Positions 35,642 through 63,572 of a DNA stretch of 64,000 nucleotides are shown here, one piece after another. The notes under the pieces were generated by a model. It was not told the DNA's origin. It did not search any database and worked only from the letters and a program-made list of their open reading frames with translations. The stretch is taken from positions 30,028 to 94,027 of the IMG/VR virus record IMGVR_UViG_3300046170_000478; one strand, 5' to 3'. The stretch comes from a virus. The first letter of the stretch is position 1; each line of letters opens with the position of its first letter. The translations under genes were made by a program, and so were the position numbers.

Positions 35642-36218
35642 TATCTATTCTTTGGCTTAATTCTAATATCGCTTTGTCATGTATATTTATACATCCCTGT
35701 GCAGAAAGATTTAATATACTAGCAATTTCCTTCCAAGGTTTTAACTTGCCTCTCTTTCCACAAAAATACCTCTCGTGGAAGATTATTTTCAAGCGACCAT
35801 CTTGGTGTTTTTCTATAAGATTAATAATTCTAGAGAAAGAATCACTCATATCACAAGACTGATCGGGAGTGTATCCTTTATCTTTTTGACAAAATTGTAT
35901 TTCATCAAAATTTGAAGTGAACCGATTGTTTTTGTTTTTCGTTTTCTGGGTCAGGCACATATATTTGGTCTTATTTGCCAAATGAGTTGAAAACTTAGCC
36001 CTAGTTTCATCATACTCTAGGGCTGCTTTGTAAATTACGTAGTCTTTTTCCCCCATTATATCGTATACTTGATTTTTGGTAAGACAATTTGACCCAAATT
36101 TTTTAAGCATATCAACGTAAATGCCTGAATGCCTAGAAATTAGCTCATTCAGGGCTACTTCATTATTATCCTCTCTAATTAGTGCGGTTAAATCAGAATC
36201 TGTAAGATTATTGATCAC
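35622..36218 (-). CDS. Phage sigma-70-like factor
   Basis: A 198-residue protein starting with GTG. Region 2 is seen at about 20-85: L-N-E-L-I-S-R-H, then Y-D-E-T-R-A-K-F-S-T-H-L-A-N-K-T-K-Y, which parallels the sigma-70 2.1-2.4 core (Y-D-x-x-R-x-K-F-S-T). A C-terminal helix-turn-helix (W-K-E-I-A-S-I-L-N-L-S-A-Q-G-C-I-N) near 160-185 is region 4. The linker is short, as in ECF or phage sigma factors. It is a strong candidate for recognising the GTGTAA-type promoters in this window. It is transcribed away from the nrd genes. Confidence 0.75.
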   Translation of the reverse strand: MINNLTDSDLTALIREDNNEVALNELISRHSGIYVDMLKKFGSNCLTKNQVYDIMGEKDYVIYKAALEYDETRAKFSTHLANKTKYMCLTQKTKNKNNRFTSNFDEIQFCQKDKGYTPDQSCDMSDSFSRIINLIEKHQDGRLKIIFHERYFCGKRGKLKPWKEIASILNLSAQGCINIHDKAILELSQRIDNEKIKF

Positions 36219-40079: not shown

Positions 40080-40918
40080 ATAAACTTTGGTTGATAGGTA
40101 TAACCACGGAAGGTCATAAACAAGATCTTCAAGAACTAATAGAACCAATCAAAAATCATTTTGATGGGCTTATCTGGACTTTTCATTACCCTAAGGATGA
40201 TGGAGCTGATTATTTAGAAAGCGTAAAAGGTCAGGGCGAAATAATTTATACCAAATGGTGTAATAGGTTGGACTTCAGCAGGAATCATTCATTATTTCAG
40301 AGTCGTATGGAAGTTGGCGATTGGTTCCTTACAATAGATACCTTAGAAAGACTTTCTCCAGATTTTACAGGAAGATTGAAAAGTATTTGTTCTCATTTGG
40401 ATTACTCGGGAGTTGATGGAGCTTATCTATATAATAAAAGACTTTTATTTAAACTTAATGAGCAAACAGCATTTGTAAACAATCCTCACGAAGGAATAGC
40501 GGGAGTGACAAAGACTATAGAGCTTTCCAAGCAATCTTTTTGGGAGGAAAGATATCAAAAAAACGTAAGAGCAGATAAAAGACAAGATCCATTATATTTC
40601 ATTAATCATAATTTTAAATATTATTTTTTCCCCAATACAAATCATTTATTGTTAGGTTTTGAGAATGATAAGGATCTAGTAAATAAAAGATACCAAAATA
40701 GATCCAAGCTTATTTCTCTGATTAAGAAGGAGGGCTTAAATCCTTTTTGCTTAGATTCTGTTGAACTATGTTTTAGGTATAGATTAAATAAAGAAATTAA
40801 AGAGTGTATTAGCTTTGATAAATTTTTAAACGATTGGTATAGATATAAAATCCTAGAACAGAAAGAGGGTTTTGTAGACAAGCACGATTTCTCAGTATTT
40901 GAACCCCTTTTTATATGA
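40076..40918 (+). CDS. Glycosyltransferase-like protein 2
   Basis: A 280-residue protein in the glycan operon. N-terminal strands (L-W-L-I-G-I-T-T-E-G-H) are followed by R-L-D-F-S-R-N near 65 and W-F-L-T-I-D-T-L-E near 84-92, in the place of the GT2 nucleotide/metal-binding region but without a clean DxD. The C-terminus is basic and helical. It may be a GT2 relative with an altered metal site. It overlaps both neighbours by ATGA. Confidence 0.5.
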   Translation: MNKLWLIGITTEGHKQDLQELIEPIKNHFDGLIWTFHYPKDDGADYLESVKGQGEIIYTKWCNRLDFSRNHSLFQSRMEVGDWFLTIDTLERLSPDFTGRLKSICSHLDYSGVDGAYLYNKRLLFKLNEQTAFVNNPHEGIAGVTKTIELSKQSFWEERYQKNVRADKRQDPLYFINHNFKYYFFPNTNHLLLGFENDKDLVNKRYQNRSKLISLIKKEGLNPFCLDSVELCFRYRLNKEIKECISFDKFLNDWYRYKILEQKEGFVDKHDFSVFEPLFI

Positions 40919-41694
40919 TTTCTTTATATACTACTTTATTTAACATTTCTAGACTAAATATTGATTTTGACGATGTATTTTCTAATTGGCTCTACTATTG
41001 TGATGAAATTATTATTTCAACATTTAAAAAAGATGTCGGGGAGATTGAGCAAGAAATATCAAAAAGTAAATTTTATGATCCTCATAAAATAAAGATTATA
41101 TCAAAAGAATTAGATATAGAGGGGGATGTTTTCTGGGAGGGGAAATTAAAAAACGAAGGATTACAATTTTGTAAAAATAAAGTCGTCATTCAGTGTGATA
41201 TGGACGAGAGGATATCTGGCGAACCTATTCTTTTCCATTATTTATGTAATCACATTTTATCTCACGGTTCCCCTTGTAGCATTATGCTTCCTACCATTGA
41301 TCTTTACGAAGATTTAGATCATTATGTGAATGTTGGATACAAATGGTATTTGCATAGAAAAAAGGGAACTTATAGAGGTTCTGTTAAGTGGGCTAGAAAA
41401 GACAATGGAGATCTAGATCCTGAAAAAAGTGATACCTGCGAACTGATCGATAAAGATGCTAATTTAATATCCTGTATTGGCAAAGTTGATTTAGAAGATA
41501 ATGGTCCTAAAATTATCCATTTAGGTTACTTAGATTTGGAAGAAAGAAATAACGTTAATAAATTTTGGGGTAAAATCTGGAATCATAGATCTGAAGGAGA
41601 ATTTGACCCTAGTTTTCTTCCAGAGGAAGTTCAATCAGGAGACTCAAGAAAACAAAAACATAATTTAACTAAACCTTTATGGCCCAACTTATGA
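40915..41694 (+). CDS. GT2-like glycosyltransferase 3
   Basis: A 259-residue protein. It shows N-terminal strand-helix units and V-V-I-Q-C-D-M-D-E-R near residue 88-97, a clear D-x-D of GT-A enzymes. A conserved G-Y-K-W-Y-L-H-R segment near 142 suggests the acceptor side. It is more clearly a glycosyltransferase than the two upstream genes. The stop overlaps the next start (ATGA at 41691). Confidence 0.65.
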   Translation: MISLYTTLFNISRLNIDFDDVFSNWLYYCDEIIISTFKKDVGEIEQEISKSKFYDPHKIKIISKELDIEGDVFWEGKLKNEGLQFCKNKVVIQCDMDERISGEPILFHYLCNHILSHGSPCSIMLPTIDLYEDLDHYVNVGYKWYLHRKKGTYRGSVKWARKDNGDLDPEKSDTCELIDKDANLISCIGKVDLEDNGPKIIHLGYLDLEERNNVNKFWGKIWNHRSEGEFDPSFLPEEVQSGDSRKQKHNLTKPLWPNL

Positions 41695-42449
41695 AGAAAT
41701 ATGGTATAATCTATTGCGGCTTTAACACAGAGGACTACATCCTAAGATCTATTGAACCGTTTTTAAGTAGGGAAAATTATTTTGTTTCCGCAGTGTCTGT
41801 CCCTTTTAAAGAGTATAAAGATATAGATGAACTTGAGGATAATAGTACTAATATATTAAGAGATTTGGTTATCCAAGGACGATTGAAAAGTTTAGTTGAT
41901 AAGCCTAAATATATCTTAGAGTCAGAGGCTAGGAATTTAGCCTTGGAAAAATTAAAAAAGCATGATTTAGATTACATTTGGTTGGTTGACTCAGACGAGT
42001 TTTACACCGAAAAAGATATTCAAAAAATTGAAGATTATGTCGAGTCAAGTGATAAAAATTTATTTAAAATATCGTTTAAAAATCACGTTTTTGATATAGA
42101 TCATTATTTAGAAGAACCCTTTTGTCCTCCAAGAATTTTTAAAACAAGAATTAATGATATGCTTGATTTAGAGGGGTTCTATTGGGACAATGATATTTCT
42201 TATTCTTGCTTCGGGAATCTAGTAAGATACAATGATATTGAACAATTAACGATTATACCTGAAGAGGTAGCTCTTATTAGTCACTTTACATGGCTTAATG
42301 ATAAAATAGGAAAGCGGAAAGTAGAATATCAACACAGGCATTTTGGTCATTGCGGGTATAAGTGGGATAAAGAGTCTAATACTATTGAATTTGATGAAGA
42401 ATTCCACAAAATTCACAACATACCTATTCCAAAAGTTAAAAAAATATGA
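41691..42449 (+). CDS. GT2-like glycosyltransferase 4
   Basis: A 252-residue protein. I place the start at ATG 41691 because it forms the ATGA overlap used throughout this operon; an upstream in-frame ATG at 41679 would add four residues. It has W-L-V-D-S-D-E-F near 100-108, the GT-A D-x-D site, and R-N-L-A-L-E-K-L before it. H-F-T-W and H-R-H-F-G-H near the C-terminus are likely active-site His. It likely acts in the same pathway as the neighbouring enzymes. Confidence 0.68.
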   Translation: MKKYGIIYCGFNTEDYILRSIEPFLSRENYFVSAVSVPFKEYKDIDELEDNSTNILRDLVIQGRLKSLVDKPKYILESEARNLALEKLKKHDLDYIWLVDSDEFYTEKDIQKIEDYVESSDKNLFKISFKNHVFDIDHYLEEPFCPPRIFKTRINDMLDLEGFYWDNDISYSCFGNLVRYNDIEQLTIIPEEVALISHFTWLNDKIGKRKVEYQHRHFGHCGYKWDKESNTIEFDEEFHKIHNIPIPKVKKI

Positions 42450-43228
42450 AAGCAGTATCTCCAGAATGTAGATTAATAATCGACACTCAAAATATGAATA
42501 AGTATAACTTTTTAAAAAAGTTGATTTATCCTCATAGACTTCTTAATTTAAATAAACATAGATATGGAGGTAGTGAAGATGGCAGTTATGTTTTCGTAAA
42601 AGAAGTGTTTGAAAGTTCTAAAAACGTATACTCTTATGGAATCGGTTCAGACGTTTCTTTTGATAAGTGTTGTGCTGAAATGGGTAAAAAGGTATTTATG
42701 TATGATGCCTCGATAGAAGAACTTCCAGAGTTTCATAGTAAGTTTAATTTTAAAAAACAATTCTTATTATCTGGATTAATCAAAGATCATATACTTGAAA
42801 ACGGTCATGGAGAAGGAGATACAGATATGATTTTGAAAATGGATATTGAAGGGCATGAATATGATGTAATTAATAAAGATATTGATTTAATCAAAAAACA
42901 TTTTAATCAAATTTCTATAGAAATTCATGGATTGATAGAAGAAATTCCAGAAGGATGGGTAATAGATGATTTATTAAAAAAAATAAAGCCAGACAAGACT
43001 TTAAAAGAAACTTTTTTCAAGAATCTGTCAAAATACTATAATATTGTTCATATTCATGGCAATAATCACTCTTATAGATTTTTTGATTTTCCAGACTCAT
43101 TGGAAATAAGTTTTTTAAGGAAGGACTTCGCGACATTGGGGAAAGACAACATTTCATTTCCTGTTGACGGATTAGATTTTCCCAATTATGATATGGTGGA
43201 AGATTTTAAATTAGATTGGTGGATTTGA
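42446..43228 (+). CDS. FkbM-family SAM-dependent methyltransferase
   Basis: A 260-residue protein. It has the FkbM/Methyltransf_21 layout: an early D-G-S-Y-V region, a Rossmann strand Y-S-Y-G-I-G-S-D-V, an acidic strand (V-F-M-Y-D-A-S) for SAM, and the diagnostic M-D-I-E-G-H-E-Y block near residue 130-140. Such enzymes often O-methylate sugars. Placed among glycosyltransferases and before gmd, it probably methylates a glycan or sugar. It overlaps the previous gene by ATGA. Confidence 0.75.
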   Translation: MKAVSPECRLIIDTQNMNKYNFLKKLIYPHRLLNLNKHRYGGSEDGSYVFVKEVFESSKNVYSYGIGSDVSFDKCCAEMGKKVFMYDASIEELPEFHSKFNFKKQFLLSGLIKDHILENGHGEGDTDMILKMDIEGHEYDVINKDIDLIKKHFNQISIEIHGLIEEIPEGWVIDDLLKKIKPDKTLKETFFKNLSKYYNIVHIHGNNHSYRFFDFPDSLEISFLRKDFATLGKDNISFPVDGLDFPNYDMVEDFKLDWWI

Positions 43229-43229
43229 A

Positions 43230-44264
43230 ATGAAAAAAATAATTATTACAGGTGTGACAGGTCAAGATGGTAGTTTTATGACTGACTATCTTTTGGAGAA
43301 TACAGAGCATACTATTATTGCGGGAGTACGCCGTCTTAGTGTCAAAAACCACGAGAATATTTCTCATCTTAAGGATAATGCTAGATTTAAATTAATTGAT
43401 CTTGATGTTGCAGACCAAGCAAATACAGATCTTGTGATTGCAGAAGAGAAGCCAGATTATTTTATTAACTTTGCTGCTAATTCTTTTGTCGGGGTTAGCT
43501 GGAAGATGCCAGTCAATCACATGGAAACGAATACAATGGCTGTTTTATACCAGTTGGAAGCTATAAGGAAGCATTGCCCTAATTGTCGTTATTATAATGC
43601 TGGCTCCTCAGAAGAGTTTGGGGACGTTTTATATTCTCCCCAGTCAGAACTTCATCCTCTGCGCCCAAGAAGCCCATATGGGGTTTCTAAGGCTAGCGCG
43701 AGGCATATGGTGAAAGTCTGGAGAGACTCTTACGACTTGTTTGCTGTACAGGGCTGGTTATTTAACCATGAAGGGACTCGTCGTGGTGAAGAGTTTGTCA
43801 CTCGTAAGATCACAAAAAATGTAGCTCGCATTAAAAAAGAGTATATTTTAAATGATTTTAAACCTCTTGAGTTAGGGAATATCGATGCAAAAAGAGATTG
43901 GAGTGATTCCGAGGACTTTGTAGAAGGCATTTGGCTAATGCTGAATCAAGAAGAGCCTAAGGAATATGTTCTATCCTCTAATGAAACTCATACTATTAGA
44001 GAGTTCGTAGAACAAGCGTTTAACTTCGCTGGATTCGCTGTAGAAGAGTGCAAGTGGGTTGGAAAGGGTGTGGAGGAAAAATATTTACATGAAGGTCGGA
44101 CCCTAATGAAAATTAATCCAGATTTCTATCGACCCGCTGAAGTAGAAGTTCTTTGGGGGGATTCTTCTGAGGCTAGAAGACACTTGGGTTGGAAGCCCAA
44201 AACAGACTTTATTGGTCTCGTAAGAAAAATGGTTGACAATGATTTGAAGTTGAGTATGGTTTAA
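43230..44264 (+). CDS. gmd: GDP-mannose 4,6-dehydratase
   Basis: A 344-residue extended short-chain dehydrogenase. The NADP site G-V-T-G-Q-D-G lies at 8-14; the catalytic G-S-S-E-E-F-G region is near 128 and Y-G-V-S-K-A-S near 149-155 gives the Tyr/Lys pair. R-R-G-E-E-F-V-T-R-K near 185-195 matches Gmd substrate-loop residues. It converts GDP-D-mannose to GDP-4-keto-6-deoxymannose, precursor of fucose, rhamnose and perosamine. No second-step enzyme is visible here, so the host or another phage gene must finish the sugar. Confidence 0.88.
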   Translation: MKKIIITGVTGQDGSFMTDYLLENTEHTIIAGVRRLSVKNHENISHLKDNARFKLIDLDVADQANTDLVIAEEKPDYFINFAANSFVGVSWKMPVNHMETNTMAVLYQLEAIRKHCPNCRYYNAGSSEEFGDVLYSPQSELHPLRPRSPYGVSKASARHMVKVWRDSYDLFAVQGWLFNHEGTRRGEEFVTRKITKNVARIKKEYILNDFKPLELGNIDAKRDWSDSEDFVEGIWLMLNQEEPKEYVLSSNETHTIREFVEQAFNFAGFAVEECKWVGKGVEEKYLHEGRTLMKINPDFYRPAEVEVLWGDSSEARRHLGWKPKTDFIGLVRKMVDNDLKLSMV

Positions 44265-51394: not shown

Positions 51395-53955
51395 TGTTTG
51401 AAGACTTCACACCATATGATGATTGCGAGCCAGCTGGGGTTGAGCTTCCGAAAACAGTTGTTAACGAATCAAAGTTAAAGGAGCTAGGTCTGGATCTAGA
51501 TAGCACGAATAAGGAGATCCTATATGAGCTTGCAAGGAAGGGGTTAAAAGATCGTGGTATTATACGGTACGAAAATAAAGAAGTTTATTTTTCTAGAACA
51601 CAACAAGAGTTAGAGACTCTGGTAGATTTGGATTTTACAGATTATATCTTGCTTAACTGGGATGTCCTCAATTTTTGCCATGACAATAATATTCCAACTG
51701 GTGCTGGCCGAGGTTCTGCTGCAGGTTCTCTTGTTTTATATTTGCTAGGAGTTACTAATATTGATCCTATACCTAATAATCTTTTTTTTGAGCGATTTGT
51801 GTCTAAATCAAGAGCAAAGAAGGTTGAAGACAAAAGGGGTAATAAATTTCTTGTTGGGAGTCTCCTCCCAGATGTTGATTCTGATATTTCTTATGATCAA
51901 AGACATAAGGTTATAGAATATATTGAGAGGAAACACGAGGGTAGGACAGCAAAAATACTTACGTTTAATACTTTTAGCTCCAAGCTCTGTATTAGAGAAG
52001 CTACTAAATACTTTGATCGAGCGAAAGAGATTGAAGCTAATAGAGTTTCGGATATGATACCTAAAATTCATGGAAAAGTTTTTTCTTTGAATCAGGCGAG
52101 AGAGGAGGGGGAAAGTTTTAAATCTTGGGTTAAGAGCCACAAGAAAACATTTGAAAATGCTTTGAAGGTAGAAGGTCTACCGAAGAACTCTGGGGTCCAT
52201 CCCTCTGGGATTGCTATTTGTTCTAAGAAAATTGAGGATATGGTTCCTCTTCAGAGAACTAAGGACGGAGATTTAATTACTGGCTACGACATGAATGATG
52301 TAGCAGATCTAATGGTCAAGTTTGATATCTTGGGGTTAAGAACATTGACTATTGCTCACAAGACCTGTGATAAAGTACAGGTTGATCTTGAGGATATTGA
52401 CCCAAATGATAAATTAATTTACGATATTCTCCAAGATTTCAAACATCCCATGGGATTGTTCCAGATTTCAGCTGAGACAAACTTTAAAGTTTGTAGAAAA
52501 GTTAAACCAGTAGATATTAATGAGCTTTCAGATGTTGTTGCTCTTGCTAGGCCAGCAGCTCTCCAGTTTGTAGATTCTTACAAGAACCAGAAAGATGACC
52601 CTACAGAGTTAAATTTAAATCCAGAGCTAGATAATATTTTATCTTGGTCAAAGAACGTTATCTTGTATCAAGAGCAATTAATGCAAATCGCCCACAACGT
52701 TTTTGGATTAAGTCTTGAAGAAGCGGAGGTTCTCAGAAGGATAGTGGGAAAGAAAAAGGTGGATGAAATGCCCAAGTGGAAGGATAGAATTTATGATGCA
52801 GCCAAATCAAGGAGCTTGAGTGAAGAAATAGCTGACTTTTATTGGAATTCTCTGGTCGCAGCGTCTCATTACTCTTTCAACAAGTCTCATAGCTTTGCTT
52901 ATGCGGACTTGGCGGCTAAGACGGTTTATCTTAAACACACTTACCCTCAGGAATTTTTTCTTTCAATCTTGGAATGTTCTGAATTTGATCCAGAGCCGCT
53001 GGAGGTAATATCTGGAGTAAATGAAGAATTATCTGACTTCGGTATCAAAATGTTACCGCCCTGTTTGTTTAAATCAGATTTTAATTTTAAAATAGAGGGG
53101 AATGACATCAGGTATGGATTAAATAGTATTAAAGGAATTTCTTTGAAATCTATACAAAGCTTAATCGATTTTAGAGGAAAAAAATTTAATAATAAATACG
53201 AGGTTTTTCTAGCCGCAAAGCAGTGTGGGATTAACATCTCTGTTTTAGCTGCGCTTATCCAAGCTGGAACAATGGATAACACAGGCACAAATAGAACTCG
53301 GCTAGTATTAGAGGCTCAATCATTTAATCTGTTAACAGACAGGGAGAAGAGGAATTTTGTTAAGATGGGAGAAAGGTTTGGGTATGATATATTGAAGGCA
53401 ATATCAGAAGTCGTTAAGAATCAAACTTTGGCAGATGATAACCGCCCTATAATGAAAGAGAAGCGATTCGGCACATTTGAAAAGAAGTATTCGGGTTATA
53501 AAAAAATATATAATCAGAATAGGAAACACGAGATGTTTTCAAATTGGAGGTATGAGACTACTTTATTGGGATATAGTTATTCTCATAATCTACGAGATTG
53601 CTTTATAGATAGGTTTTCTTCTTTAGTAGATATAAAGGAGCTAGACTTTTTTACTGACAGGGAAACATTCCAAGTGGTCGGGGAGGTAAAAGATTTTTTC
53701 GTTAGAGTGTCTTCTAATGACAATAAATATATGATACTAACAATTTGCGATAATACTGCGACGAAGAATTTTCTATTTATGGATAATAGCAGAGAACAGA
53801 AGCTATCTAATTTTCTTGCGCGTGGCAAAAAGATTGCAAAGAATCAAGTAATTGTTATAAATGGCTCAAGAAGTAGCGATGCCTTCTTTGTAGATAAAAT
53901 AAATTCAATCGATACAGATATATATATGAAATTGAAAGAGGTAAAAAATGACTAG
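51394..53955 (+). CDS. dnaE: DNA polymerase III alpha catalytic subunit (no PHP)
   Basis: An 853-residue C-family polymerase starting directly at the palm region. G-A-G-R-G-S-A-A-G-S near 103, the catalytic P-D-V-D-S-D near 158-163 and V-K-F-D-I-L-G-L-R near 307 give the three active-site Asp. A fingers and helix-hairpin-helix part follows (I-I/L-Q-A-G-T near 625). An OB-like strand set appears near 760-800. The PHP domain normally fused at the N-terminus is a separate gene upstream. C-family replicases are rare in phages. Confidence 0.92.
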   Translation: MFEDFTPYDDCEPAGVELPKTVVNESKLKELGLDLDSTNKEILYELARKGLKDRGIIRYENKEVYFSRTQQELETLVDLDFTDYILLNWDVLNFCHDNNIPTGAGRGSAAGSLVLYLLGVTNIDPIPNNLFFERFVSKSRAKKVEDKRGNKFLVGSLLPDVDSDISYDQRHKVIEYIERKHEGRTAKILTFNTFSSKLCIREATKYFDRAKEIEANRVSDMIPKIHGKVFSLNQAREEGESFKSWVKSHKKTFENALKVEGLPKNSGVHPSGIAICSKKIEDMVPLQRTKDGDLITGYDMNDVADLMVKFDILGLRTLTIAHKTCDKVQVDLEDIDPNDKLIYDILQDFKHPMGLFQISAETNFKVCRKVKPVDINELSDVVALARPAALQFVDSYKNQKDDPTELNLNPELDNILSWSKNVILYQEQLMQIAHNVFGLSLEEAEVLRRIVGKKKVDEMPKWKDRIYDAAKSRSLSEEIADFYWNSLVAASHYSFNKSHSFAYADLAAKTVYLKHTYPQEFFLSILECSEFDPEPLEVISGVNEELSDFGIKMLPPCLFKSDFNFKIEGNDIRYGLNSIKGISLKSIQSLIDFRGKKFNNKYEVFLAAKQCGINISVLAALIQAGTMDNTGTNRTRLVLEAQSFNLLTDREKRNFVKMGERFGYDILKAISEVVKNQTLADDNRPIMKEKRFGTFEKKYSGYKKIYNQNRKHEMFSNWRYETTLLGYSYSHNLRDCFIDRFSSLVDIKELDFFTDRETFQVVGEVKDFFVRVSSNDNKYMILTICDNTATKNFLFMDNSREQKLSNFLARGKKIAKNQVIVINGSRSSDAFFVDKINSIDTDIYMKLKEVKND

Positions 53956-56290
53956 CCTTCCTTTTACCCCACATATAGAAGGAGTAATCAAAACAACTGA
54001 AGAGTTGTGTGATGTTTTATACAGGAATGGAGCGGATACAGATTTGTTTTTCCACTGCTTCTTGAATGACTTAAGTGAGTCTTGCTCCTCTATTTTTAAA
54101 AAAGTAGATATTGAACCCAAAGATCTTTTAAAAGAGTCTCGCAAGGTTTTAAGCAAGAAAAGAAAAAATAAGTATACGAAGAAGTTTCTAAAGACAGAGG
54201 TCAGGAAGCTCTTGAGAGAAGCGGAAAAAGTTTCACGGGAGAGTTTTTCCTTGGATTACATACCTCCAGAGGTCATTTTGATGGTGTTCTTTGAAGAAGA
54301 GTATTCGCCTAAGGTAATTAAAAAATTATTTCCAGCAGGAGATGAGGCTTCTGCGGAGGTGGTATTGGGATTTATTACAGAGTCTTCTTTGATTGTCAAA
54401 GATGTGGATTTTGGCAGTGATTTTGTAGATGCTCCGATTAATACTCCAGAGGATTGGATAGATATGTTCTCTAAGAATGAGATATTATCACAATTTGCTG
54501 AAAATTTAAATTTAAAAGCTTTAAATCAAGACTTTGACACTATCGTTGATTTTGACGGCAAGATAGATGAGATAGCTACTGTGCTTTGCAGGAAAAAAAA
54601 GCCGAATGCATTACTTGTGGGGCCAGCTGGGACGGGCAAGACTTCTTTGGTCGAGGGATTAGCTTCTAAAATAGTTTCTGGACATGCTCCAGAGCTGATA
54701 GCCAACAAGGTTATTTACTCCGTCAGCTTGTCAAGTATGGTTGCTGGCACAGAATATCGGGGTCAGTTTGAAAAACGCTTAGAAGATTTCGTTTCTGAAG
54801 CTAAAAAATATTCTAACTTAGTTTTATTTATCGATGAAGTTCATACCTTAGTGGGGGCGGGAGGAGCTACCAATAATTCCTTAGAAGCTTCAAACATACT
54901 TAAGCCAGAATTGGCTCGTGGGACGATTAGCTGCATTGGAGCTACAACTATTAATGAGTATACTAATACGATTAAGAAAGACTCAGCGCTTGATCGGAGG
55001 TTTGAGCGGATCTCAATTCGTGAACCATCTAAATTTCAGATGAAAGAGATTTTGCCTACAATAACCTCATATTATGAAGACTTTCATGGAGTGAGTTATA
55101 CTGATAGATTCTTAGATAATGTGATGGACTATTGTGAGAAGTATATGCCTAATAAGTTTTATCCAGATAAGGCTATTGACGTTATTGATCACTGCGGCGC
55201 TCAATCAAAGGTGAGTCATAATGAGGTGGACCCATCTATAAAAGATCAGCAAATAGAAGCTATGTCAGCAGCACTAGATCCAGAGAGGGACCATTTACAG
55301 ATTTTAGAGAAGTTGAATGAATCATTAGAAAAGTGGGCGGGGTCTGTTTCTCAAAAGACTCCAGAGGTAAAGCTTCGTCATCTAAGGGATTTCTTTGACC
55401 GTAAGAAAAACCCGTTAAGTAATAGAGATGTAACAGATAAAGTATTTAATTGTATTGGCGACTCTATTATTGGCCAAAAACATTTTCTCAAAAAACTAAG
55501 GGAGAAGATGATTCTTTCTGGCCTTGGTATTCGGAAGACGGATAATTTTGCATCTCCAGATTGCTTTGTGATTAGTGGGCCAAGATTTAGCGGCAAGTCT
55601 TATTTTGTAGAATTATTGGAGGATGGTTTGGAAAAAAATTCTGTAAATGTATTGTCTTACAGTGGGGTCCATTTCTCAGATTCTTACGCAGCTCATAAAA
55701 TAGCCTCTTCAGATGGTCATAACACATCTATTTGTGAAAAAGTTTTAATCTCTCCGAATAGTGTTATAATTATAGATGATTTCCACAAAGTCAGCCCCTT
55801 ATCCATTCCTTTGTTTAATCAGATATTCAAGCATGGGCAGCTTCAAATGAGCAATGGGGATATTGCTGACTTTACAAATTGTAAAATATTTTTAACAAGC
55901 GCTGTTTCTACTAGTCAATCATCAATGGGGTTCCAAAAGGAGACCTCGGATAAAGATAATTTAATTATACACCCAGATATATTGTCACTTGTAGATGAAT
56001 GTTTTTCTCTAAAAGAGTTGAATAGCAAGGGGTTAAGAAGATTGCTTTGGTCTAAATTGAATAGATTAAAAAATAGATTAAAAGATAATAATATAGAATT
56101 AACCTTCAATTTCAATTATATTAAACACATTGTATCTCAAATTGATAAGGAAAAAATAAAAGTAGATGCTTTAAGTAAGAAGATGTTATCGGAAATCACG
56201 CCATTTGTTTCAGAGAGGGTTCTGTCTGGAGAAAAAAATATTGAACTTTTTGTTGAAAAAGGTTTAAATAAGCATGATCATACATTATGA
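53948..56290 (+). CDS. Clp-like double AAA+ ATPase
   Basis: A 780-residue ClpA/ClpC-type unfoldase. D1: Walker A G-P-A-G-T-G-K-T near 224, pore loop T-E-Y-R-G-Q-F-E-K near 270, Walker B F-I-D-E-V-H near 292, Arg finger L-D-R-R-F-E. D2: Walker A G-P-R-F-S-G-K-S near 543 and Walker B I-I-I-D-D near 606. The D2 pore loop lacks the usual G-Y-V-G. A tripeptide M-G-F near 659 lies where ClpA has IGL and ClpX has IGF, the ClpP-docking loop. It overlaps the polymerase gene by 8 bases. Confidence 0.88.
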   Translation: MTSLPFTPHIEGVIKTTEELCDVLYRNGADTDLFFHCFLNDLSESCSSIFKKVDIEPKDLLKESRKVLSKKRKNKYTKKFLKTEVRKLLREAEKVSRESFSLDYIPPEVILMVFFEEEYSPKVIKKLFPAGDEASAEVVLGFITESSLIVKDVDFGSDFVDAPINTPEDWIDMFSKNEILSQFAENLNLKALNQDFDTIVDFDGKIDEIATVLCRKKKPNALLVGPAGTGKTSLVEGLASKIVSGHAPELIANKVIYSVSLSSMVAGTEYRGQFEKRLEDFVSEAKKYSNLVLFIDEVHTLVGAGGATNNSLEASNILKPELARGTISCIGATTINEYTNTIKKDSALDRRFERISIREPSKFQMKEILPTITSYYEDFHGVSYTDRFLDNVMDYCEKYMPNKFYPDKAIDVIDHCGAQSKVSHNEVDPSIKDQQIEAMSAALDPERDHLQILEKLNESLEKWAGSVSQKTPEVKLRHLRDFFDRKKNPLSNRDVTDKVFNCIGDSIIGQKHFLKKLREKMILSGLGIRKTDNFASPDCFVISGPRFSGKSYFVELLEDGLEKNSVNVLSYSGVHFSDSYAAHKIASSDGHNTSICEKVLISPNSVIIIDDFHKVSPLSIPLFNQIFKHGQLQMSNGDIADFTNCKIFLTSAVSTSQSSMGFQKETSDKDNLIIHPDILSLVDECFSLKELNSKGLRRLLWSKLNRLKNRLKDNNIELTFNFNYIKHIVSQIDKEKIKVDALSKKMLSEITPFVSERVLSGEKNIELFVEKGLNKHDHTL

Positions 56291-56910: not shown

Positions 56911-57327
56911 ATGCCTTATACAGTCGAGTTTTTAGATGACGAGTTATATCGTAGCCTGTCTTTTGATGCTGATATCAAGTTTGAACAGGGGACCGAATAT
57001 GCTAAAAAAATCTGGGTTTTAAAAAAGTATAAAAGTCAGGGGGGTAAGATCGAGTTGACTGAATTTGAGGAAGAGAAGAAAAAACATACTGTAAATAAGT
57101 ATTCTTCTTACTCCCTGAGTAAGTCATTTAGAAACGATGAGCTAGTAGTGGAGGTGATTCAACATTATACTCTGCAAGACGACTTTGACTTCTTTTCTAA
57201 AGCGGAACTAGAAGAAGATACTGGAGATGAGAGTCTTAATAAAGAGTTGACTAAAATTAAAGAATCTGATTTTAGTGAACAATTGATTAAAAATCTTATT
57301 GAAGAATTTGATTGTGAAGGCGAATAG
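56911..57327 (+). CDS. Conserved unknown acidic protein
   Basis: A 138-residue protein, one of those with the clear dyad motif before its ATG, hence probably a transcription-unit head. The N-terminal half has alternating strands (Y-T-V-E-F-L-D-D-E; K-K-I-W-V-L-K-K-Y) and the C-terminus is a long acidic helix. Its tail overlaps the hldD start. No function is recognised. Confidence 0.55.
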   Translation: MPYTVEFLDDELYRSLSFDADIKFEQGTEYAKKIWVLKKYKSQGGKIELTEFEEEKKKHTVNKYSSYSLSKSFRNDELVVEVIQHYTLQDDFDFFSKAELEEDTGDESLNKELTKIKESDFSEQLIKNLIEEFDCEGE

Positions 57328-58156
57328 AGTATTAATCACTGGTGCGGGCGGATTCATAGGCGGCAATTTAGCCGCCTATTTATCTCATAGGGGATACAAT
57401 GTAACAAAATTTGATTTTAATCTTGGTCATTCTGGATTGCCTAATGTCTTTGATCAAGATATTGTTATTCACCTTGGGGCTAATTCCAGTACAACAGAGA
57501 GAAATTTAAAGAAAATCCTCAAGCAGAATTTTGAATTTTCCAAGAAACTATTTGAGCTATGTGCGAGTGTAGATGTTAAGTTCCAGTATGCAAGCAGCGC
57601 ATCTGTTTATGGAACGGGGAAGAATTTTAATGAAGATGACTTCTGTAAACCTATAAGTCCGTATGCCTTTAGCAAATATATGTTTGATTGCTGGTTATTG
57701 AATCAAGATTATCCATACCAAGGTTTTAGGTATTTTAATGTTTATGGCTTAGGAGAAAATAAGAAGGGAGATCAGGCGAGTCCTGTGTCCAAGTTTATTA
57801 AACAAGCTTACAAAGACGGAGAGATAAGTTTATTTGAAAAAAGTGACAGGATAAAAAGGGATTTTGTTTGTGTCGATGATATTTGTGAGATCCATTACGA
57901 AATGCTTCTTAAAGATGAATCGGGCATATTTAATGTTGGAACTGGCAAGCCCATTTCTTTTACTGATGTCGCTGAGATAATACAATCAAAAATGACATGT
58001 GAAATCAAGGAAATACCTATGCCGAAACAGCTTGTGGGGCAATATCAGAGATTCACTAAAGCAAATAACTCTAAGTTATTAAAAGTTATTGGCGATTATA
58101 AATGGAAGAGTGTAAAGGATTATGTAGAAGAAAATTTAAATGCTCTCTCTAGTTAA
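57314..58156 (+). CDS. hldD: ADP-L-glycero-D-manno-heptose 6-epimerase
   Basis: A 280-residue epimerase; I take GTG 57314 as the start, giving M-K-A-N-R-V-L-I-T-G, though a TTG at 57299 is possible. It follows E. coli HldD along its length: NADP site G-A-G-G-F-I-G-G, S-S-T-T-E, A-S-S-A-S-V-Y-G, Y-A-F-S-K-Y-M-F-D (catalytic Tyr/Lys), G-F-R-Y-F-N-V-Y-G and G-I-F-N-V-G-T-G. It epimerises ADP-heptose, the donor of the LPS inner core. It pairs with the GT9 genes. Confidence 0.85.
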   Translation: MKANRVLITGAGGFIGGNLAAYLSHRGYNVTKFDFNLGHSGLPNVFDQDIVIHLGANSSTTERNLKKILKQNFEFSKKLFELCASVDVKFQYASSASVYGTGKNFNEDDFCKPISPYAFSKYMFDCWLLNQDYPYQGFRYFNVYGLGENKKGDQASPVSKFIKQAYKDGEISLFEKSDRIKRDFVCVDDICEIHYEMLLKDESGIFNVGTGKPISFTDVAEIIQSKMTCEIKEIPMPKQLVGQYQRFTKANNSKLLKVIGDYKWKSVKDYVEENLNALSS

Positions 58157-58406
58157 ATCAGTATTAAAGTCAGTAGAGTTATATTTAACTTTAAAGAATA
58201 AACTATTCTTCTTTGAATTAACCAATAACCATGAAAGAAAAAGAAAAAAAATCATCCAAGAGATTGAAGATATTAGGTCTAATGACGGTGATGCTGACAG
58301 GGCTGATCTCTTGCGGGAACAACTCATCAGTGAAGACAAATCCTTTAAACATTTATCAGCCTTCTACTCTAAGTCTTCAGAACGGGATTCCAGTTCAGAC
58401 AAGTAA
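58140..58406 (+). CDS. Lysis-region protein overlapping an Rz1-like gene
   Basis: An 88-residue protein starting inside the hldD end. An N-terminal amphipathic, mildly hydrophobic stretch (L-S-L-V-K-S-V-L-K-S-V-E-L-Y-L) is followed by charged coiled coil (I-I-Q-E-I-E-D-I-R, A-D-R-A-D-L-L-R-E-Q-L) and H-L-S-A-F-Y. Its last 176 bases are read in another frame by the lipoprotein gene. The arrangement resembles Rz/Rz1 spanin pairs, though a clear transmembrane helix is not obvious here. Confidence 0.6.
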   Translation: MLSLVKSVLKSVELYLTLKNKLFFFELTNNHERKRKKIIQEIEDIRSNDGDADRADLLREQLISEDKSFKHLSAFYSKSSERDSSSDK

Positions 58407-58500
58407 AGGTATATATACCCCCCAGACAGATGAAGTTTGGCATTCTGATGCTAGATTTAGGAAGCTTGAGAGGCAGCTTTATTTTCCCAGCGTGAAATAG
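58231..58500 (+). CDS. Rz1-like outer-membrane lipoprotein
   Basis: An 89-residue protein. A basic N-terminus is followed by a hydrophobic segment and the lipobox L-I-S-C with C28 as the acylated residue, so the mature part is an outer-membrane lipoprotein. The mature protein has Q-P-S-T-L-S-L-Q and T-P-Q-T-D-E-V-W-H-S-D-A-R-F, a pattern repeatedly found next to lysis genes. It starts within the preceding frame, the hallmark of nested o-spanins. It probably disrupts the outer membrane at lysis. Confidence 0.7.
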   Translation: MKEKEKKSSKRLKILGLMTVMLTGLISCGNNSSVKTNPLNIYQPSTLSLQNGIPVQTSKGIYTPQTDEVWHSDARFRKLERQLYFPSVK

Positions 58501-58846: not shown

Positions 58847-59044
58847 ATGAACTCTATTGAATTTAGTGATGAAGAGCTTAATGCTCTTATGCAATTAATT
58901 GATATCGCAATTAAATCTCAAGGCTTGAATGTAGCTCAAGCTGGTGTCATCTTAGCGGACAAAGTTCGCGAAGCGGCTTCTCCTCCTCCTGAAGTTGATT
59001 CTGAACCCAAATTTGCTGAAGAAGCAGAGGTGGTATCAGATTAG
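58847..59044 (+). CDS. Small acidic phage protein
   Basis: A 65-residue acidic protein: an amphipathic helical half (F-S-D-E-E-L-N-A-L-M-Q-L-I-D) and a Pro/Glu-rich tail. It ends before the strong bidirectional terminator. The gap before it holds TTGATATTACATT but not the full motif. Confidence 0.5.
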   Translation: MNSIEFSDEELNALMQLIDIAIKSQGLNVAQAGVILADKVREAASPPPEVDSEPKFAEEAEVVSD

Positions 59045-59074: not shown

Positions 59075-59107
59075 AAGACACGATAGCCCCTTGGGTTATC
59101 GTGTCTT
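59075..59107. terminator. Bidirectional 15-bp hairpin between convergent genes
   Basis: Bases 59075-59089 pair with 59093-59107 (one G-T wobble) around the loop CTT. It lies between two convergent genes, so it should stop transcription from both sides even though the flanking T-runs are short. Confidence 0.85.
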
Positions 59108-59123
59108 CATTTATTTAGGTCGT

Positions 59124-59954
59124 CTAATAAGTTTTCCGCTTACCTAGAAGTAAAATTATAGGGATGGCACTAAGAAGAATAAAATGCGCCTCTGGGATTG
59201 CAGTACCCGTTGTACCACTGAACTTTAAAATAGATGGGTTTTGTGAGAATGATACACCATTGAAGTAAATATCATCGCCTTGTACCGCGAATTGATCTAA
59301 CGAACTTAAAGTGAGTTGGGCATTTGGAGATAAGTTAACGATAGACCTTTCGGTTTGACTATTGATTGAGTCTCCAGCCCCTCGTAGAGTTAAACTGCTG
59401 GTTGAATCAACATTTATTTGTAATCCTATTGCGGAAAACATAGCGTTCATACTCGACCCTTCAGTTATATTTAAAGTAGAATAAACATTATCATCATCAT
59501 CTACTCCAGTAAAACCATTATTGTTTTGAAAAGTAAAATTCGTAGATTTTAATGTTACTGAAAACTCGTCACCGATTTCAATATTTGAATAAGAGGGGCT
59601 ATCTTCAAGTATTAGGGCATCCGTTATAGTCAATATGTTAGTAATAGGCGAATCTCTGTTTAATTCCAGAGAATCTGATTCTGAAAAATCCCAGTTTGGG
59701 GCATCATAAAAATCATAAATATCTTCTTCTTCTGCGTCCCAAACTATAACCATATCTAATTTCTTATCTTCGCTTTCGGCTATATCTACAACCTCCTCGT
59801 TACTAATCTGGATGGGTCTTTGAATATTGACTACAGGGTTGATATTAGGGTTTTCTGTAGGGTTTATTAGGAATACATTTCCTTCTACAGAGGCAATAAT
59901 AGCAGATTTAGCTACAGAAATAATTGAGAGTAAAGTTATGAGTGTGCGCTTCAT
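59124..59954 (-). CDS. Secreted PEP-CTERM protein (cargo)
   Basis: A 276-residue protein. The N-terminus (M-K-R-T-L-I-T-L-L-S-I-I-S-V-A-K-S-A) is a signal peptide. The C-terminus has I-P-E-A, a hydrophobic helix and G-K-R-K, the tripartite PEP-CTERM signal cut by exosortase. The body is beta-rich, Asp/Asn/Ser-rich and may form a beta-helix. No phage structural motif is visible. In bacteria such proteins are exported and anchored or secreted with exopolysaccharide, so this looks like host-type cargo that alters the cell surface. ATGA overlap with the upstream gene. Confidence 0.75.
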   Translation of the reverse strand: MKRTLITLLSIISVAKSAIIASVEGNVFLINPTENPNINPVVNIQRPIQISNEEVVDIAESEDKKLDMVIVWDAEEEDIYDFYDAPNWDFSESDSLELNRDSPITNILTITDALILEDSPSYSNIEIGDEFSVTLKSTNFTFQNNNGFTGVDDDDNVYSTLNITEGSSMNAMFSAIGLQINVDSTSSLTLRGAGDSINSQTERSIVNLSPNAQLTLSSLDQFAVQGDDIYFNGVSFSQNPSILKFSGTTGTAIPEAHFILLSAIPIILLLGKRKTY

Positions 59955-60142
59955 TTCTTCTTTTTTAGTATAAGGTTTTTCAGTTTAGTGAGATTCCCCG
60001 TCAACTTCCCTAACAACCTCCCCAGCTTACTATTTTCAGGCACAATGTAGGAAAGCGTCCCCAATAAACCCAAGATAGAAATAATAAACTCAGGCATTGA
60101 CCCCATATAAGGAGCGAGTATTTTTTCAAATAAATCTTCCAT
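59951..60142 (-). CDS. Small membrane protein
   Basis: A 63-residue protein with one hydrophobic segment (residues about 16-34, F-I-I-S-I-L-G-L-L-G-T-L-S-Y-I-V) and a Lys-rich C-terminal tail. It lies between the acidic-repeat protein and the PEP-CTERM protein and overlaps the latter by ATGA. It could be a holin-like or anchoring protein, but the lysis holin is more likely the gene at 61409. Confidence 0.55.
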   Translation of the reverse strand: MEDLFEKILAPYMGSMPEFIISILGLLGTLSYIVPENSKLGRLLGKLTGNLTKLKNLILKKKK

Positions 60143-60147
60143 AATAA

Positions 60148-61362
60148 CTATTTTCTTATCATGTTGGGGAGTTTAATCACATCAGGGACTTGAGTGACTT
60201 GATCATCTTCTTCTAGTTCAAATGTTTCTTCTGAATTCTCAATATCTGTTTTTTCTTTTTCGCCCTCTTCAGACTGTTCTTCAGGCTCCTCTTTTTCTTC
60301 AGGCTCACCCTCTTCAGATTCTTCCTCCACTTCTTCTCCCTCTTCTTCTTCTTCGGATTCCTCCTCTTCGGATTCCTCCTCTTCGGATTCCTCCTCTTCA
60401 GCCTCTTCGGATTCCTCCTCTTCGGATTCCTCTTCTTCAGCCTCTTCGGATTCCTCTTCGGATTCCTCTTCGGATTCTTCTGTTTCCTCTCCTTCAGCCT
60501 CTTCCTCTGCTCCTTCTTCAGTTTCTACAGAATCCTCTTCTTTGACAGCTTCTCCTTCGCCTTCTTCATTATTTTCTTCTGTAGGCTCACCCTCATTTCC
60601 TTCGGCCTCGTCAGACGCTTCGCCTTCCCCCTCTTCACCACTAGATCCTTCACCTTCTCCTTCTTCGCCTCCTTCGTAACCTTCTTCAGATGTGCCGACA
60701 ACATCTCCATAACCTTTTTCAGCGTATTCTACAATTGACTCGGTAACGCCACCAAAAGGCTGAAACCCAATTGTCGTTTCAGTAAAATCATTTAAATTAG
60801 AAAATATCTGGTGTTCTTGCTCTGCCACAACAGCTATTTCAGTACCTTTTTCTTTTGTTGTTTTGGCTTGGAAGTAAGCTCCACTACCTATGGACATAGT
60901 TCCAGCGACCCCAATTGTTCCTACTTTTTGAACTGTCTCTTGGACAAAAGCGCTTAAACCAGTAGCGGCACTTGCTGTTTGGGTTGTCGCTCCAGCAGCG
61001 GCTGCAGCAGCAGTACCTTTTGCAGCTTTTTCTAAAATATCTTTATTTTTTTCAGCTATCTCAGACAACTTATCCATAGTAGAAGTCTCAGGGGTTTCAG
61101 CCTTCACTTCCTGACCTTTATTTTTTTCAACTTTAACTTCTTCTCCCTCAATCTCTTCTTCTAAGGACTCTTCTTCCACCTCATTGCCACATTCTTCACA
61201 GACACAAGGGCTTTGTTCCAAATGTTTAATTCTCTGTAATAAAGCCCATGCTGTTTCTCTTGCATGGCGGTCTAAATCAGAGATGATGTCGCTATCATCT
61301 GGATTGCAGTATTTTTTTGCGAAAGCTTCTGCTTCCGCAAGATCTTTGCGATGTTCCCCCAT
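60148..61362 (-). CDS. Acidic Glu/Ser repeat protein with zinc knuckle
   Basis: A 404-residue protein. The N-terminal part has C-V-C-E-E-C-G near 53-59, a possible zinc knuckle. A region of Ala/Gly/Thr with weak hydrophobic patches follows (about 110-165). Then comes a very long Glu/Ser/Gly tract (about 230-385) with E-E-S-E repeats and near-total lack of hydrophobics, an intrinsically disordered acidic tail. It heads the minus-strand cargo cassette and has GTGTAT 10 nt before its ATG. The function is unknown; DNA mimicry or surface exposure are guesses. Confidence 0.65.
   Translation of the reverse strand: MGEHRKDLAEAEAFAKKYCNPDDSDIISDLDRHARETAWALLQRIKHLEQSPCVCEECGNEVEEESLEEEIEGEEVKVEKNKGQEVKAETPETSTMDKLSEIAEKNKDILEKAAKGTAAAAAAGATTQTASAATGLSAFVQETVQKVGTIGVAGTMSIGSGAYFQAKTTKEKGTEIAVVAEQEHQIFSNLNDFTETTIGFQPFGGVTESIVEYAEKGYGDVVGTSEEGYEGGEEGEGEGSSGEEGEGEASDEAEGNEGEPTEENNEEGEGEAVKEEDSVETEEGAEEEAEGEETEESEEESEEESEEAEEEESEEEESEEAEEEESEEEESEEEESEEEEEGEEVEEESEEGEPEEKEEPEEQSEEGEKEKTDIENSEETFELEEDDQVTQVPDVIKLPNMIRK
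60352..60480. repeat. Tandem 15-bp repeats in the acidic tail gene
   Basis: TTCGGATTCCTCCTC occurs three times head to tail (60352-60396) and continues in altered copies to about 60480. They encode the E-E-S-E tract on the minus strand. The repeat is prone to slippage, so copy number may vary between strains. Confidence 0.8.
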
Positions 61363-61372
61363 TTAATAATTC

Positions 61373-61378
61373 ATACAC
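61373..61378 (-). promoter_or_regulatory. GTGTAT motif before the acidic repeat gene
   Basis: On the minus strand GTGTAT ends 10 nt before the ATG at 61362. It lies beside the plus-strand GTGTAA at 61393 in the same divergent gap, so both directions carry the motif. Confidence 0.5.
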
Positions 61379-61392
61379 ATATTTCTTTTTTT

Positions 61393-61409
61393 GTGTAAGT
61401 TAATTTACA
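61393..61409 (+). promoter_or_regulatory. GTGTAA dyad before holin gene
   Basis: GTGTAA (61393-61398) pairs with TTTACA across a short spacer, ending on the A of ATG 61409. The spacing shows that the holin begins at 61409, not at the in-frame TTG at 61391. Confidence 0.55.
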
Positions 61410-61723
61410 TGGACCTAAAAAATCTAATGAGAGAATTTATGGATGGCGGATGGGTTATTCCAATAATTGGGGCTGCGGGTATGATAGCTAGGATGCTAAA
61501 CTCCAAAGTAGAATACTGTTGGAAGGAATTCGCAAAAAACGTTAGTTCTGCAGCAATACTCTCTATGATTTTATGGTTTATTTTGCATGATGCTCCCATA
61601 AGTGATTTAGTTAAAGCTGTTTCTTATGGTGTTGTTGGTGTAATTAGTCCTGAAATCATTAATGGTCTTATTGCATTAGCAAAAAAATATGCGAAAAACC
61701 CTGAAAAAATCATTAAAAAATAA
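61409..61723 (+). CDS. Holin candidate
   Basis: A 104-residue membrane protein. Two or three hydrophobic helices are visible (V-I-P-I-I-G-A-A-G-M-I-A near 15-27; A-A-I-L-S-M-I-L-W-F-I-L near 48-59; G-V-V-G-V-I-S near 74) separated by charged loops and followed by a Lys-rich tail. The endolysin gene follows at once. It probably forms holes in the inner membrane and times lysis. Confidence 0.7.
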   Translation: MDLKNLMREFMDGGWVIPIIGAAGMIARMLNSKVEYCWKEFAKNVSSAAILSMILWFILHDAPISDLVKAVSYGVVGVISPEIINGLIALAKKYAKNPEKIIKK

Positions 61724-61728: not shown

Positions 61729-62349
61729 ATGGACTTTAAATCAAAAAAAGAAGTTGTTAAAACTGTTCAAAAATTACTTGAGATTTCTGCTGACGGAGCA
61801 GATGGTCCAGTTACTTGGAATGCTATATTGGCGAAGTTATCTACAGACGAAACAGAAGTTTCTGGGAGTAGTGTTTCAGAAAAAATGGTTAACCTAGCTC
61901 GTGGAGAAATTGGGGTATCAGAAGTTGACGGAAGTAACTGTGGACCAAGGGTGGATGTATACAAAGCTGCAACTTGGTTAGATCCTGATAAGGGTTGGCC
62001 TTGGTGTGCAGCCTTTATCTGTTGGTTAGTTAGAGAAGCCATAGAAGGAGAGGATATTTCCTTCAAAAGACCTCAAACAGCAGGAGCTTGGGACTTTGAA
62101 AATTGGGCTAGGAAACAAGTTTCAAAAGGAGTCGAGTTGCGGAAGCCTACAAATGAAGATATTAAAGCTGGAGATATAGTTGTTTTCACTTTTTCTCATA
62201 TTGGGTTAGCAGTTAAAGATATTGATTCCAGTGGTTATGTTACCACGATTGAGGGAAATACTAATGGAGCTGGCAGCAGAGAAGGAGGCTCTGTTTTGGA
62301 GAAGAAACGTCATGTTTCTTGTATTCGGAGTAGAATTAGGATTATCTAA
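61729..62349 (+). CDS. CHAP-domain endolysin
   Basis: A 206-residue protein. Residues 1-40 look like a short peptidoglycan-binding repeat (V-K-T-V-Q-K-L-L, D-G-P-V-T-W-N). The CHAP catalytic domain has Cys in P-W-C-A-A-F-I-C-W near 91-99, His in S-H-I-G-L-A-V near 156 and E-G-N-T-N near 175. It cuts the peptide part of peptidoglycan at lysis. It starts 6 nt after the holin stop. Confidence 0.88.
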   Translation: MDFKSKKEVVKTVQKLLEISADGADGPVTWNAILAKLSTDETEVSGSSVSEKMVNLARGEIGVSEVDGSNCGPRVDVYKAATWLDPDKGWPWCAAFICWLVREAIEGEDISFKRPQTAGAWDFENWARKQVSKGVELRKPTNEDIKAGDIVVFTFSHIGLAVKDIDSSGYVTTIEGNTNGAGSREGGSVLEKKRHVSCIRSRIRII

Positions 62350-62385: not shown

Positions 62386-62679
62386 ATGCAGAAAACTAAA
62401 ATCAAAGTCAGCAGGTATGACATCTTTGATTATGTCATAGGCATTTCTAATTTTGATCCTATAGAGAAGTGTATTGATCCAATACGTTATGAAGTCTTTG
62501 AGACTTTTATCTTTGATAATAAAAAAAAAGAAGATCTCCCTCAGGGTAAGGTTTTTTGCAAATTTGAAAAAGAGTTAATAAAACTAAAGACATTTTCCAG
62601 AAAAATGGATAATTCTGAGATTGATCGTATTAGTATAGAATTAGAGGAAATTGCTCCGATATTTGTCGATCTATTATAA
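62386..62679 (+). CDS. Small unknown protein
   Basis: A 97-residue protein from ATG 62386; an upstream ATG at 62377 lies inside the dyad and is less likely. It has basic N-terminal strands (I-K-V-S-R-Y-D-I-F-D-Y-V-I-G) and an acidic C-terminal helix. It ends in TAATG overlap with the GT9 gene. There is no known family. Confidence 0.5.
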   Translation: MQKTKIKVSRYDIFDYVIGISNFDPIEKCIDPIRYEVFETFIFDNKKKEDLPQGKVFCKFEKELIKLKTFSRKMDNSEIDRISIELEEIAPIFVDLL

Positions 62680-63572
62680 TGAAGGGGGATATATTTATAG
62701 ATATCGATTACCATGGAGTGGGAGATAGAATTCAAATGTCTTCAGTGCCAGAGGCTATTTATAGATGGTATGGTAAAAAAGTCGTTGACATAAAGAAATC
62801 TTGGGTCTTTGATCATAATCCATACGTTATTAGAAGAGAAGATCACAGCGACGACCTTCAAATAAAATTTGATAACGAAGGATTTCATTGCCTTTACTGC
62901 GATGAGGTGGATTGGATAAATCCTGAAATAAAGGGGGTAACAAATCTACATAGAACACTTGATAAAAATGTTCAAATACTTATCCATAGCTTGTGTCCCC
63001 CTTACGCTGATCATCAGATAGCTAGCAGTAGGAGTACGTGGATTTTTCAAAGACTATGTATCAACGCTAATCAAAACCCTAAATTAAATATTCCTAGAGG
63101 ATCAAGGTTATACAAATATGAAGATCCTAGTGAGGTTAATAAAGATCAAATATCAATTCATGTCGGGCCTAGTAAAAGCACTGGCCAATTTATCCCCGAT
63201 CATGTTTTAGATATGATAAAGAAAAGATATTCCAATTACAAGATAATTCAAATTGGGAGTTCTAGCGACCACTATTCTCCATTTATTGATAAAAGAGGTC
63301 TTGATATTTGGGATTCTGTTGAAATTATCGCTAAAAGCTCAATTTTTATTGGCATAAACAGTGGACCGATGAATATTGCGAATTGTTATCCGCATATAAA
63401 TAAGAAAGTTATTTTTAATACTGATTTAGATTGGATGGAGAAAGAGATTCAAAGATTTGAGCCTTTGAATGCAAGAGTCAATGCATCTTTCGGATGGGTC
63501 GATTTCGGATGGCAGTACTTTACTACTAAAGAGCATGATATGGGCAGGATGTACTCTTATAACAGAATATAA
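62679..63572 (+). CDS. GT9-like glycosyltransferase
   Basis: A 297-residue protein. The C-terminal Rossmann lobe shows the GT9 donor site: I-S-I-H-V-G-P-S-K-S-T near 155, I-I-Q-I-G-S near 186 and I-G-I-N-S-G-P-M-N-I-A near 225. Strands near the N-terminus (D-I-F-I-D-I-D-Y-H-G-V-G-D) form the first lobe with G-V-G-D in place of the usual G-x-G-D. It probably transfers a heptose or similar sugar. HldD elsewhere in the window could supply the donor. Confidence 0.65.
   Translation: MKGDIFIDIDYHGVGDRIQMSSVPEAIYRWYGKKVVDIKKSWVFDHNPYVIRREDHSDDLQIKFDNEGFHCLYCDEVDWINPEIKGVTNLHRTLDKNVQILIHSLCPPYADHQIASSRSTWIFQRLCINANQNPKLNIPRGSRLYKYEDPSEVNKDQISIHVGPSKSTGQFIPDHVLDMIKKRYSNYKIIQIGSSSDHYSPFIDKRGLDIWDSVEIIAKSSIFIGINSGPMNIANCYPHINKKVIFNTDLDWMEKEIQRFEPLNARVNASFGWVDFGWQYFTTKEHDMGRMYSYNRI

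Follow-up and report, generated by a model that had tools for sequence, protein, structure and literature searches.

The window analyzed here is a 64,000-nucleotide stretch of DNA that corresponds to bases 30028–94027 of a 94,027-base virus record. At positions 59124–61362 it carries a cassette of three tightly packed genes, all on the minus strand, whose ORF coordinates match exactly those given in an earlier reading made from the sequence alone (hereafter the sequence-only reading). The features of the cassette and its surroundings are as follows.

58231–58500, plus strand: lipoprotein-like spanin candidate at the other boundary of the slot (weak Rz-like match, E 0.27, a resemblance only)
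58847–59044, plus strand: small gene bounding the slot, from the ORF list, with no function assigned
59075–59107, strandless: terminator-like hairpin between the converging gene sets (15 pairs, 7 G-C)
59124–59954, minus strand: PEP-like gene (276 aa)
59127–59189, minus strand: hydrophobic stretch and K/R tail of the PEP-like protein, residues 256–276 (variable sequence, constant character)
59190–59204, minus strand: TAIPE codons, residues 251–255 (20 orthologues compared)
59901–59954, minus strand: signal-peptide-like N-terminus, residues 1–18 (by inspection and hydropathy)
59951–60142, minus strand: small-protein gene (63 aa)
60148–61362, minus strand: acidic repeat gene, first of the cassette (404 aa)
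61374–61378, minus strand: GTGTA at −16 of the acidic gene, a likely phage late promoter element
61393–61397, plus strand: GTGTA at −16 of the holin gene, a conserved motif
61409–61723, plus strand: neighboring gene for a holin-like protein (Phage_holin_3_3, E 5.7e-5, under the model cut-off)
61729–62349, plus strand: neighboring gene for a CHAP-domain endolysin (domain match)

The small-protein and PEP-like genes share an ATGA overlap, and the acidic gene stops 5 bases ahead of the small-protein gene. This overlap and spacing make the three genes look like a single operon, a reading that the sequence supports. The cassette genes run opposite to the holin and CHAP endolysin genes, and the proposed minus-strand trio set against the lysis genes is thus borne out by the ORF positions and by the holin and CHAP matches. 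Directly 5′ of the gene at 58847–59044 lies a sigma-70-like site, TTGATA-17-TATAAT (11 of 12). The hairpin at 59075–59107 had been called a strong bidirectional terminator. It is real, and a hairpin occurs at the equivalent position in many relatives, several of which have a canonical A-stem-T terminator; in the window, however, the T-tracts on its two sides are weak.

The divergent gap between the acidic gene and the holin gene had been said to carry a promoter-like motif on both strands, and we indeed found GTGTA at −16 of both starts, kept in 12/12 aligned sequences. Eight genes of the window have GTGTA at −20 to −13, compared to 0.24 expected. The motif, as GTGTA(A), lies at −17 to −14 of the ATGs of the genes at 3449, 5413, 13083, 16040, 36470, 56911, 60148, and 61409; genes with it include the first one of the cassette and those interpreted as portal, tail, tape measure, ribonucleotide reductase, and holin. 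Across 104 related loci, 193 occurrences were counted at −17 to −14 against ∼3.3 expected. We infer a late promoter function for GTGTA. In places the motif sits within short palindromes, e.g., GTGTAAATTACAC before 16040. A second lineage that carries the cassette is T4-like, an assignment made from a gp32-like gene in one of its members (L202). Here, in 6/6 loci checked (L014, L018, L022, L182, L176, and L179), the acidic gene is preceded at ∼20 nt by TATAAATA, which is the T4 late promoter. Late expression in both lineages would be the simplest reading of these motifs. A Phage_integrase search of 11 phage records, fragments among them, gave no match, with a control that was found in 14/14, and the cassette-bearing marine phages are apparently lytic. 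The presence of each phage's own late-type motif (the phage-wide GTGTA here, the T4-type promoter in the T4-like relatives), together with the lack of an integrase match, argues against an autonomously transcribed moron of a temperate phage, and in this sense the moron of the sequence-only reading is not supported. Separately, the phage record encodes a protein resembling Sigma-70 regions 2 and 4 (L157:13396–14073; Sigma70_r2, 1.4e-7), a candidate late sigma factor, and by eye the Pfam-negative product of window positions 35622–36218 is possibly similar to it.

Searches of the three cassette proteins against Pfam, NCBIfam, and PHROGs gave no functional or enzymatic domain. Their descriptions as a secreted protein with a hydrophobic C-terminal stretch, a small membrane protein, and a very acidic protein agree with hydropathy, charge, and composition. 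In the small protein, which is 90–98% identical in most relatives, a single hydrophobic stretch is combined with a cationic C-terminus. The acidic protein has a net charge of −113 and a glutamate content of 31%; an N-terminal C-x-C-x2-C motif and a near-invariant Ala/Gly-rich center are followed by a Glu-rich low-complexity region and a conserved C-terminal segment of ∼30 residues. The PEP-like protein is less conserved than these companions (77–93% identity among relatives), with variability peaking at residues 19–70 and in the tail. The sequences support a contrast between two near-invariant companions and a tagged protein that varies or is exchanged altogether. In 50,697 phage records neither the PEP-like nor the acidic protein had a relative, and for the PEP-like protein a scan of 84,980 prokaryote genomes, by pattern only, likewise gave none of cellular origin.

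In the PEP-like protein only the N- and C-terminal stretches reach a hydropathy of 1.2, the maximum in the middle being 0.82. The mature part contains 0% Cys, 4.7% K+R, and 29.4% S+T+N, compared to 0.9%, 11.9%, and 19.7%, respectively, for the other genes of the window. Published PEP-CTERM proteins have low Cys, few basic residues, and raised Ser/Thr/Asn (Haft et al. 2006, PMC1569441). A fold model was of low confidence (mean pLDDT 48) and gave no more than a hint of a beta-solenoid, and structural comparison of the model gave no significant match. We regard the mature part as an exported, cysteine-free, acidic protein that is probably a beta-solenoid.

The tail of the window protein, TAIPEAHFILLSAIPIILLLGKRKTY, consists of IPEA, a hydrophobic stretch, and KRK. 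Over 20 orthologues the TAIPE codons have a pN of 0 and a pS of 0.53, i.e., no residue has changed despite synonymous variation. Variation within the protein is greatest in the residues that follow, although these are always hydrophobic and then basic, and in 20/20 orthologues the distance from IPE to the first K/R is 15–17 residues, with at least 2 K/R at the end. Applied to 1,885 distinct ORFs, a simple rule for tails of this kind picks out the family of the PEP-like protein and two proteins with swapped bodies, and nothing else. A strict Pro-Glu-Pro motif is absent from the window protein, and most orthologues have IPE followed by A, V, I, S, F, M, or T.

The sequence-only reading had identified the protein as PEP-CTERM, and the curated models divide on this between the window and its relatives. 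Neither PF07589 nor TIGR02595 matched the window protein or 19 orthologues, and an HMM derived from the tails of 19 genuine proteobacterial PEP-CTERM proteins gave no hit to the window tail or the other phage tails. However, AIPEP is present in the sister-phage orthologues L182/L185, L201, and L202, and the tails of L182 and L201 end in TAIPEPNSFLL..RGRRN. The Pfam PEP-CTERM model aligned over its full length to L182, with 14.7 bits (under the cut-off of 20.7), and the L202 tail, TAIPEPNSFLLGSVGILLLAGVRKRKLK, scored 21.8 bits, above that cut-off; this query was the tail alone, taken from a truncated ORF, which flatters its E-value, so that the bit score is the relevant measure. TIGR02595 reached 13.5 of 16, and NCBIfam exosortase-dependent families likewise gave weak matches to the sister-phage orthologues. 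Taken literally, the refuting outcome named in the sequence-only reading, a C-terminal segment that PEP-CTERM models do not recognize, applies to the window protein; it is overturned by the sister phages, which carry AIPEP and of which L202 passes the Pfam cut-off with its tail. The invariance of TAIPE, the mature composition, and the keeping of the tail on swapped bodies also favor the identification. We conclude from these comparisons that the PEP-like protein belongs to a PEP-CTERM-type family, the motif having drifted in the lineage of the window.

Replacement of the body was seen in L224, where the acidic and small genes are those of the other cassettes and the third protein has an unrelated body. 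Compared to the family of the PEP-like protein, the N-terminus of this third protein gave z scores of 9–20 and its tail 6–19, versus ∼0 for the middle. The L224 body has a weak match to the PEP-CTERM family NF038120 (E 0.0086), and a search for it in 399 Pseudomonadota gave marginal matches only. A relative of this body, with an IPE tail of its own, TIPEVSHCGIILGVIALLLTINKRR, was found on a T7-like phage contig (L227); there, positions 1–321 hold the end of the secreted protein with this tail, immediately 5′ of the portal region. Replacement of the body behind a retained export signal and tail would fit a sorting tag.

A simpler view of the tail is that the protein is a plain periplasmic protein anchored in the inner membrane, with no exosortase processing, which would block entry of further phage DNA or regulate lysis. 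That the PEP-CTERM models fail on the tails of the window protein and of most orthologues is in keeping with such an anchor, as is the outcome of the exosortase search in MAGs: exosortase was present in 0/7 MAGs whose bins include phage or sugar-gene contigs of similar kind, some of these bins being phage-contaminated. Exosortase was also encoded in none of 9 phage records. A plain anchor, however, leaves unexplained why TAIPE is fully invariant beside a freely varying helix, and the AIPEP tails of the sister phages (one of them over the Pfam cut-off) and the tail kept on swapped bodies speak against it. In addition, 15–17 residues are short for a stable anchor and usual for PEP-CTERM proteins, whose hydrophobic stretch is usually ∼14 residues (PMC1569441). 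We consider the plain anchor improbable.

IMG/VR scans for the cassette and for the neighboring endolysin gave many marine contigs, and lysis genes adjoin the cassette in at least two lineages of phages; in the T4-like lineage these are an amidase lysin, a spanin-like gene, and small membrane genes. Compared to L025, the immediate flanks of the cassette have a pS of 0.03–0.23 and the PEP-like gene a pS of 0.49, and this difference indicates that alleles have been exchanged. Compared to distant phages, the pS of the cassette is generally under that of its neighbors. Among 71 distinct slots, 46 held a gene for a beta-barrel, 21 the cassette, 4 neither, and none both. This exclusion is partly lineage structure, because the phages with barrel and cassette tend to form different groups. 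The barrel is an exported 12-strand outer-membrane protein (e.g., L039:8337–9008; best PDB match PcoB, 2.7e-7), and its genes mostly have a TTGAC..-type, sigma-70-like promoter and are probably early. The timing, and perhaps the job, of the two slot occupants may therefore differ. At several barrel loci an ATTACA-n4-TGTAAT palindrome lies at the promoter. The idea of a moron thus holds for its exchangeable-cargo part, given the allele exchange and the mutual exclusion with another envelope gene, but not for autonomous transcription.

Since the cassette adjoins lysis genes in both lineages read, assistance in lysis is the main rival to a role at the cell surface. The cassette would then weaken outer layers of the host, such as an EPS matrix or a surface layer, or tune the timing of lysis, and the late-type promoters of both lineages agree with this. 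The small protein, with its one hydrophobic stretch and basic tail, would play the part of an antiholin or of a partner to the holin, and the site of action of the exported protein would be the periplasm or outer layer. Against a lysis accessory stand the absence of an enzymatic domain in all three proteins and the existence of related phages without the cassette, whose slot holds the beta-barrel or neither; the exosortase-type tag and body swapping, moreover, point to surface exposure rather than to a conserved part of the lysis machinery. We regard a lysis accessory as rather unlikely.

PEP-CTERM proteins are tied to exopolysaccharide systems (PMC1569441), and the mature PEP-like protein is acidic and rich in S/T/N. 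Both points would suit a mimic of the host matrix, in which the cassette adds to extracellular material, e.g., for aggregation or sinking, and gives no anti-phage protection. Expression late, just before lysis, would leave little time for such a benefit, however, and no cellular homologue emerged from the patterned scan of 84,980 genomes, so that we find this very improbable. By eye, sugar-nucleotide and glycosyltransferase-like genes lie at window positions 57299–58156, 43230–44264, 39345–43228, 28823–32425, and 62679–63572, the abundance of sugar genes on the phage suggesting glycan modification. Two further observations concern a ClpA-like double-AAA ATPase at window positions 53948–56290 (phrog_4871, ATP-dependent protease, E 5e-103) and a phage protein with tandem VGVGSSS repeats (L157:962–2308).

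Attempts to place the host gave conflicting signals. A search with GMD, a sugar gene, had its closest matches on phage contigs that had been binned into MAGs of Flavobacteriaceae and Lokiarchaeota, and both groups were rejected as hosts on the ground of binning contamination. In the Flavobacteriaceae MAG (G009; contigs L107, L113, L114, and L115), the phage contigs are probably contamination because two different phages of the group sit in one bin. The terminase was found in 1/301 Flavobacteriaceae genomes, namely the contaminated bin itself, and in 0/299 Pseudomonadota genomes. Shine-Dalgarno sequences are nearly absent (10/66 versus 6.1 expected), and Bacteroidota are likewise nearly without them (PMC6847099); the Bacteroidota promoter TAnnTTTG, however, was not enriched, whereas TTGAC..TAnnnT was. 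The translation and promoter signals for a Bacteroidota host thus appear contradictory. The AIPEP tails would lead one to expect an exosortase-positive host among marine Verrucomicrobiota or their relatives. A tRNA search found none.

From these data we propose an exchangeable late cassette that encodes an exported protein with an exosortase-type tag, its role being most likely the masking of receptors late in infection; we hold this proposal with evenly balanced confidence. The PEP-like protein would cross the inner membrane via its signal peptide and be held in the membrane by its short C-terminal helix, until a host exosortase cuts it and passes it to the surface or to surface polysaccharide. 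At that site it would most likely hide receptors in the late phase of infection and so keep superinfecting phages and fresh progeny from adsorbing to dying cells or debris. Its companions, the acidic protein and the small membrane protein, would probably aid delivery or work alongside in the envelope. The export signals, the tag, the packing of the genes, the classes of promoter motif, and the exchangeability can be read from the sequence, whereas exosortase processing, a surface location, and receptor masking are what we infer; that the cassette changes the cell surface, as the sequence-only reading had suggested, is plausible, and receptor masking or superinfection exclusion is our best guess at its function. 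More tentatively, and with the balance somewhat against it, several unrelated lytic marine phage lineages may share a late module of two near-invariant companions and an interchangeable surface protein delivered by the host exosortase, which would remodel the surface of cells that are dying.

Exosortase sorting is known from cells, as a surface system, and its use by a phage would, if true, be a viral borrowing; full-text searches of the available papers yielded no description of PEP-CTERM cargo carried by a phage. Since an exosortase-dependent tag demands a host that possesses exosortase, the proposal would also predict the host group of a widespread family of uncultured marine phages, and it would give a testable handle on the role of exosortase-dependent display in infected cells. 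The naturally occurring variants of the tag (PEP, PEA, PEV, PEI, PES, and PEF) could, if the tag is what it seems, serve work on exosortase specificity.

The closest known system is PEP-CTERM/exosortase (EpsH; PF07589, TIGR02595), with which the phage protein shares a signal peptide, the motif, ∼14–17 hydrophobic residues, a basic C-terminus, the absence of a further membrane segment, a scarcity of Cys and basic residues, and an abundance of Ser/Thr/Asn. It differs in being phage-borne, in having lost the third residue of PEP in the window and most orthologues, and in that the searched phage records encode no exosortase. The same plan of motif, hydrophobic stretch, and basic tail is seen in L147:1979–2311, which we take to be a PID-CTERM-like tail beside an XrtF-type exosortase of Bacteroidota; its motif (APIGG..) is different, however, so such exosortase targets do not fit the phage tail. 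The MipA/OMP_b-brl-type barrels of L039 and others occupy the same slot and are likewise exported envelope proteins, but they have an unrelated fold, lie on the opposite strand, and have a sigma-70-like promoter instead of GTGTA. Phage morons and superinfection-exclusion envelope proteins form a general class that the cassette resembles as exchangeable cargo with a predicted envelope location, mutually exclusive with the barrel. Members of that class have an autonomous promoter and belong to temperate phages, whereas the cassette has late-type promoters, apparently lytic phages, and an exosortase-type tag.
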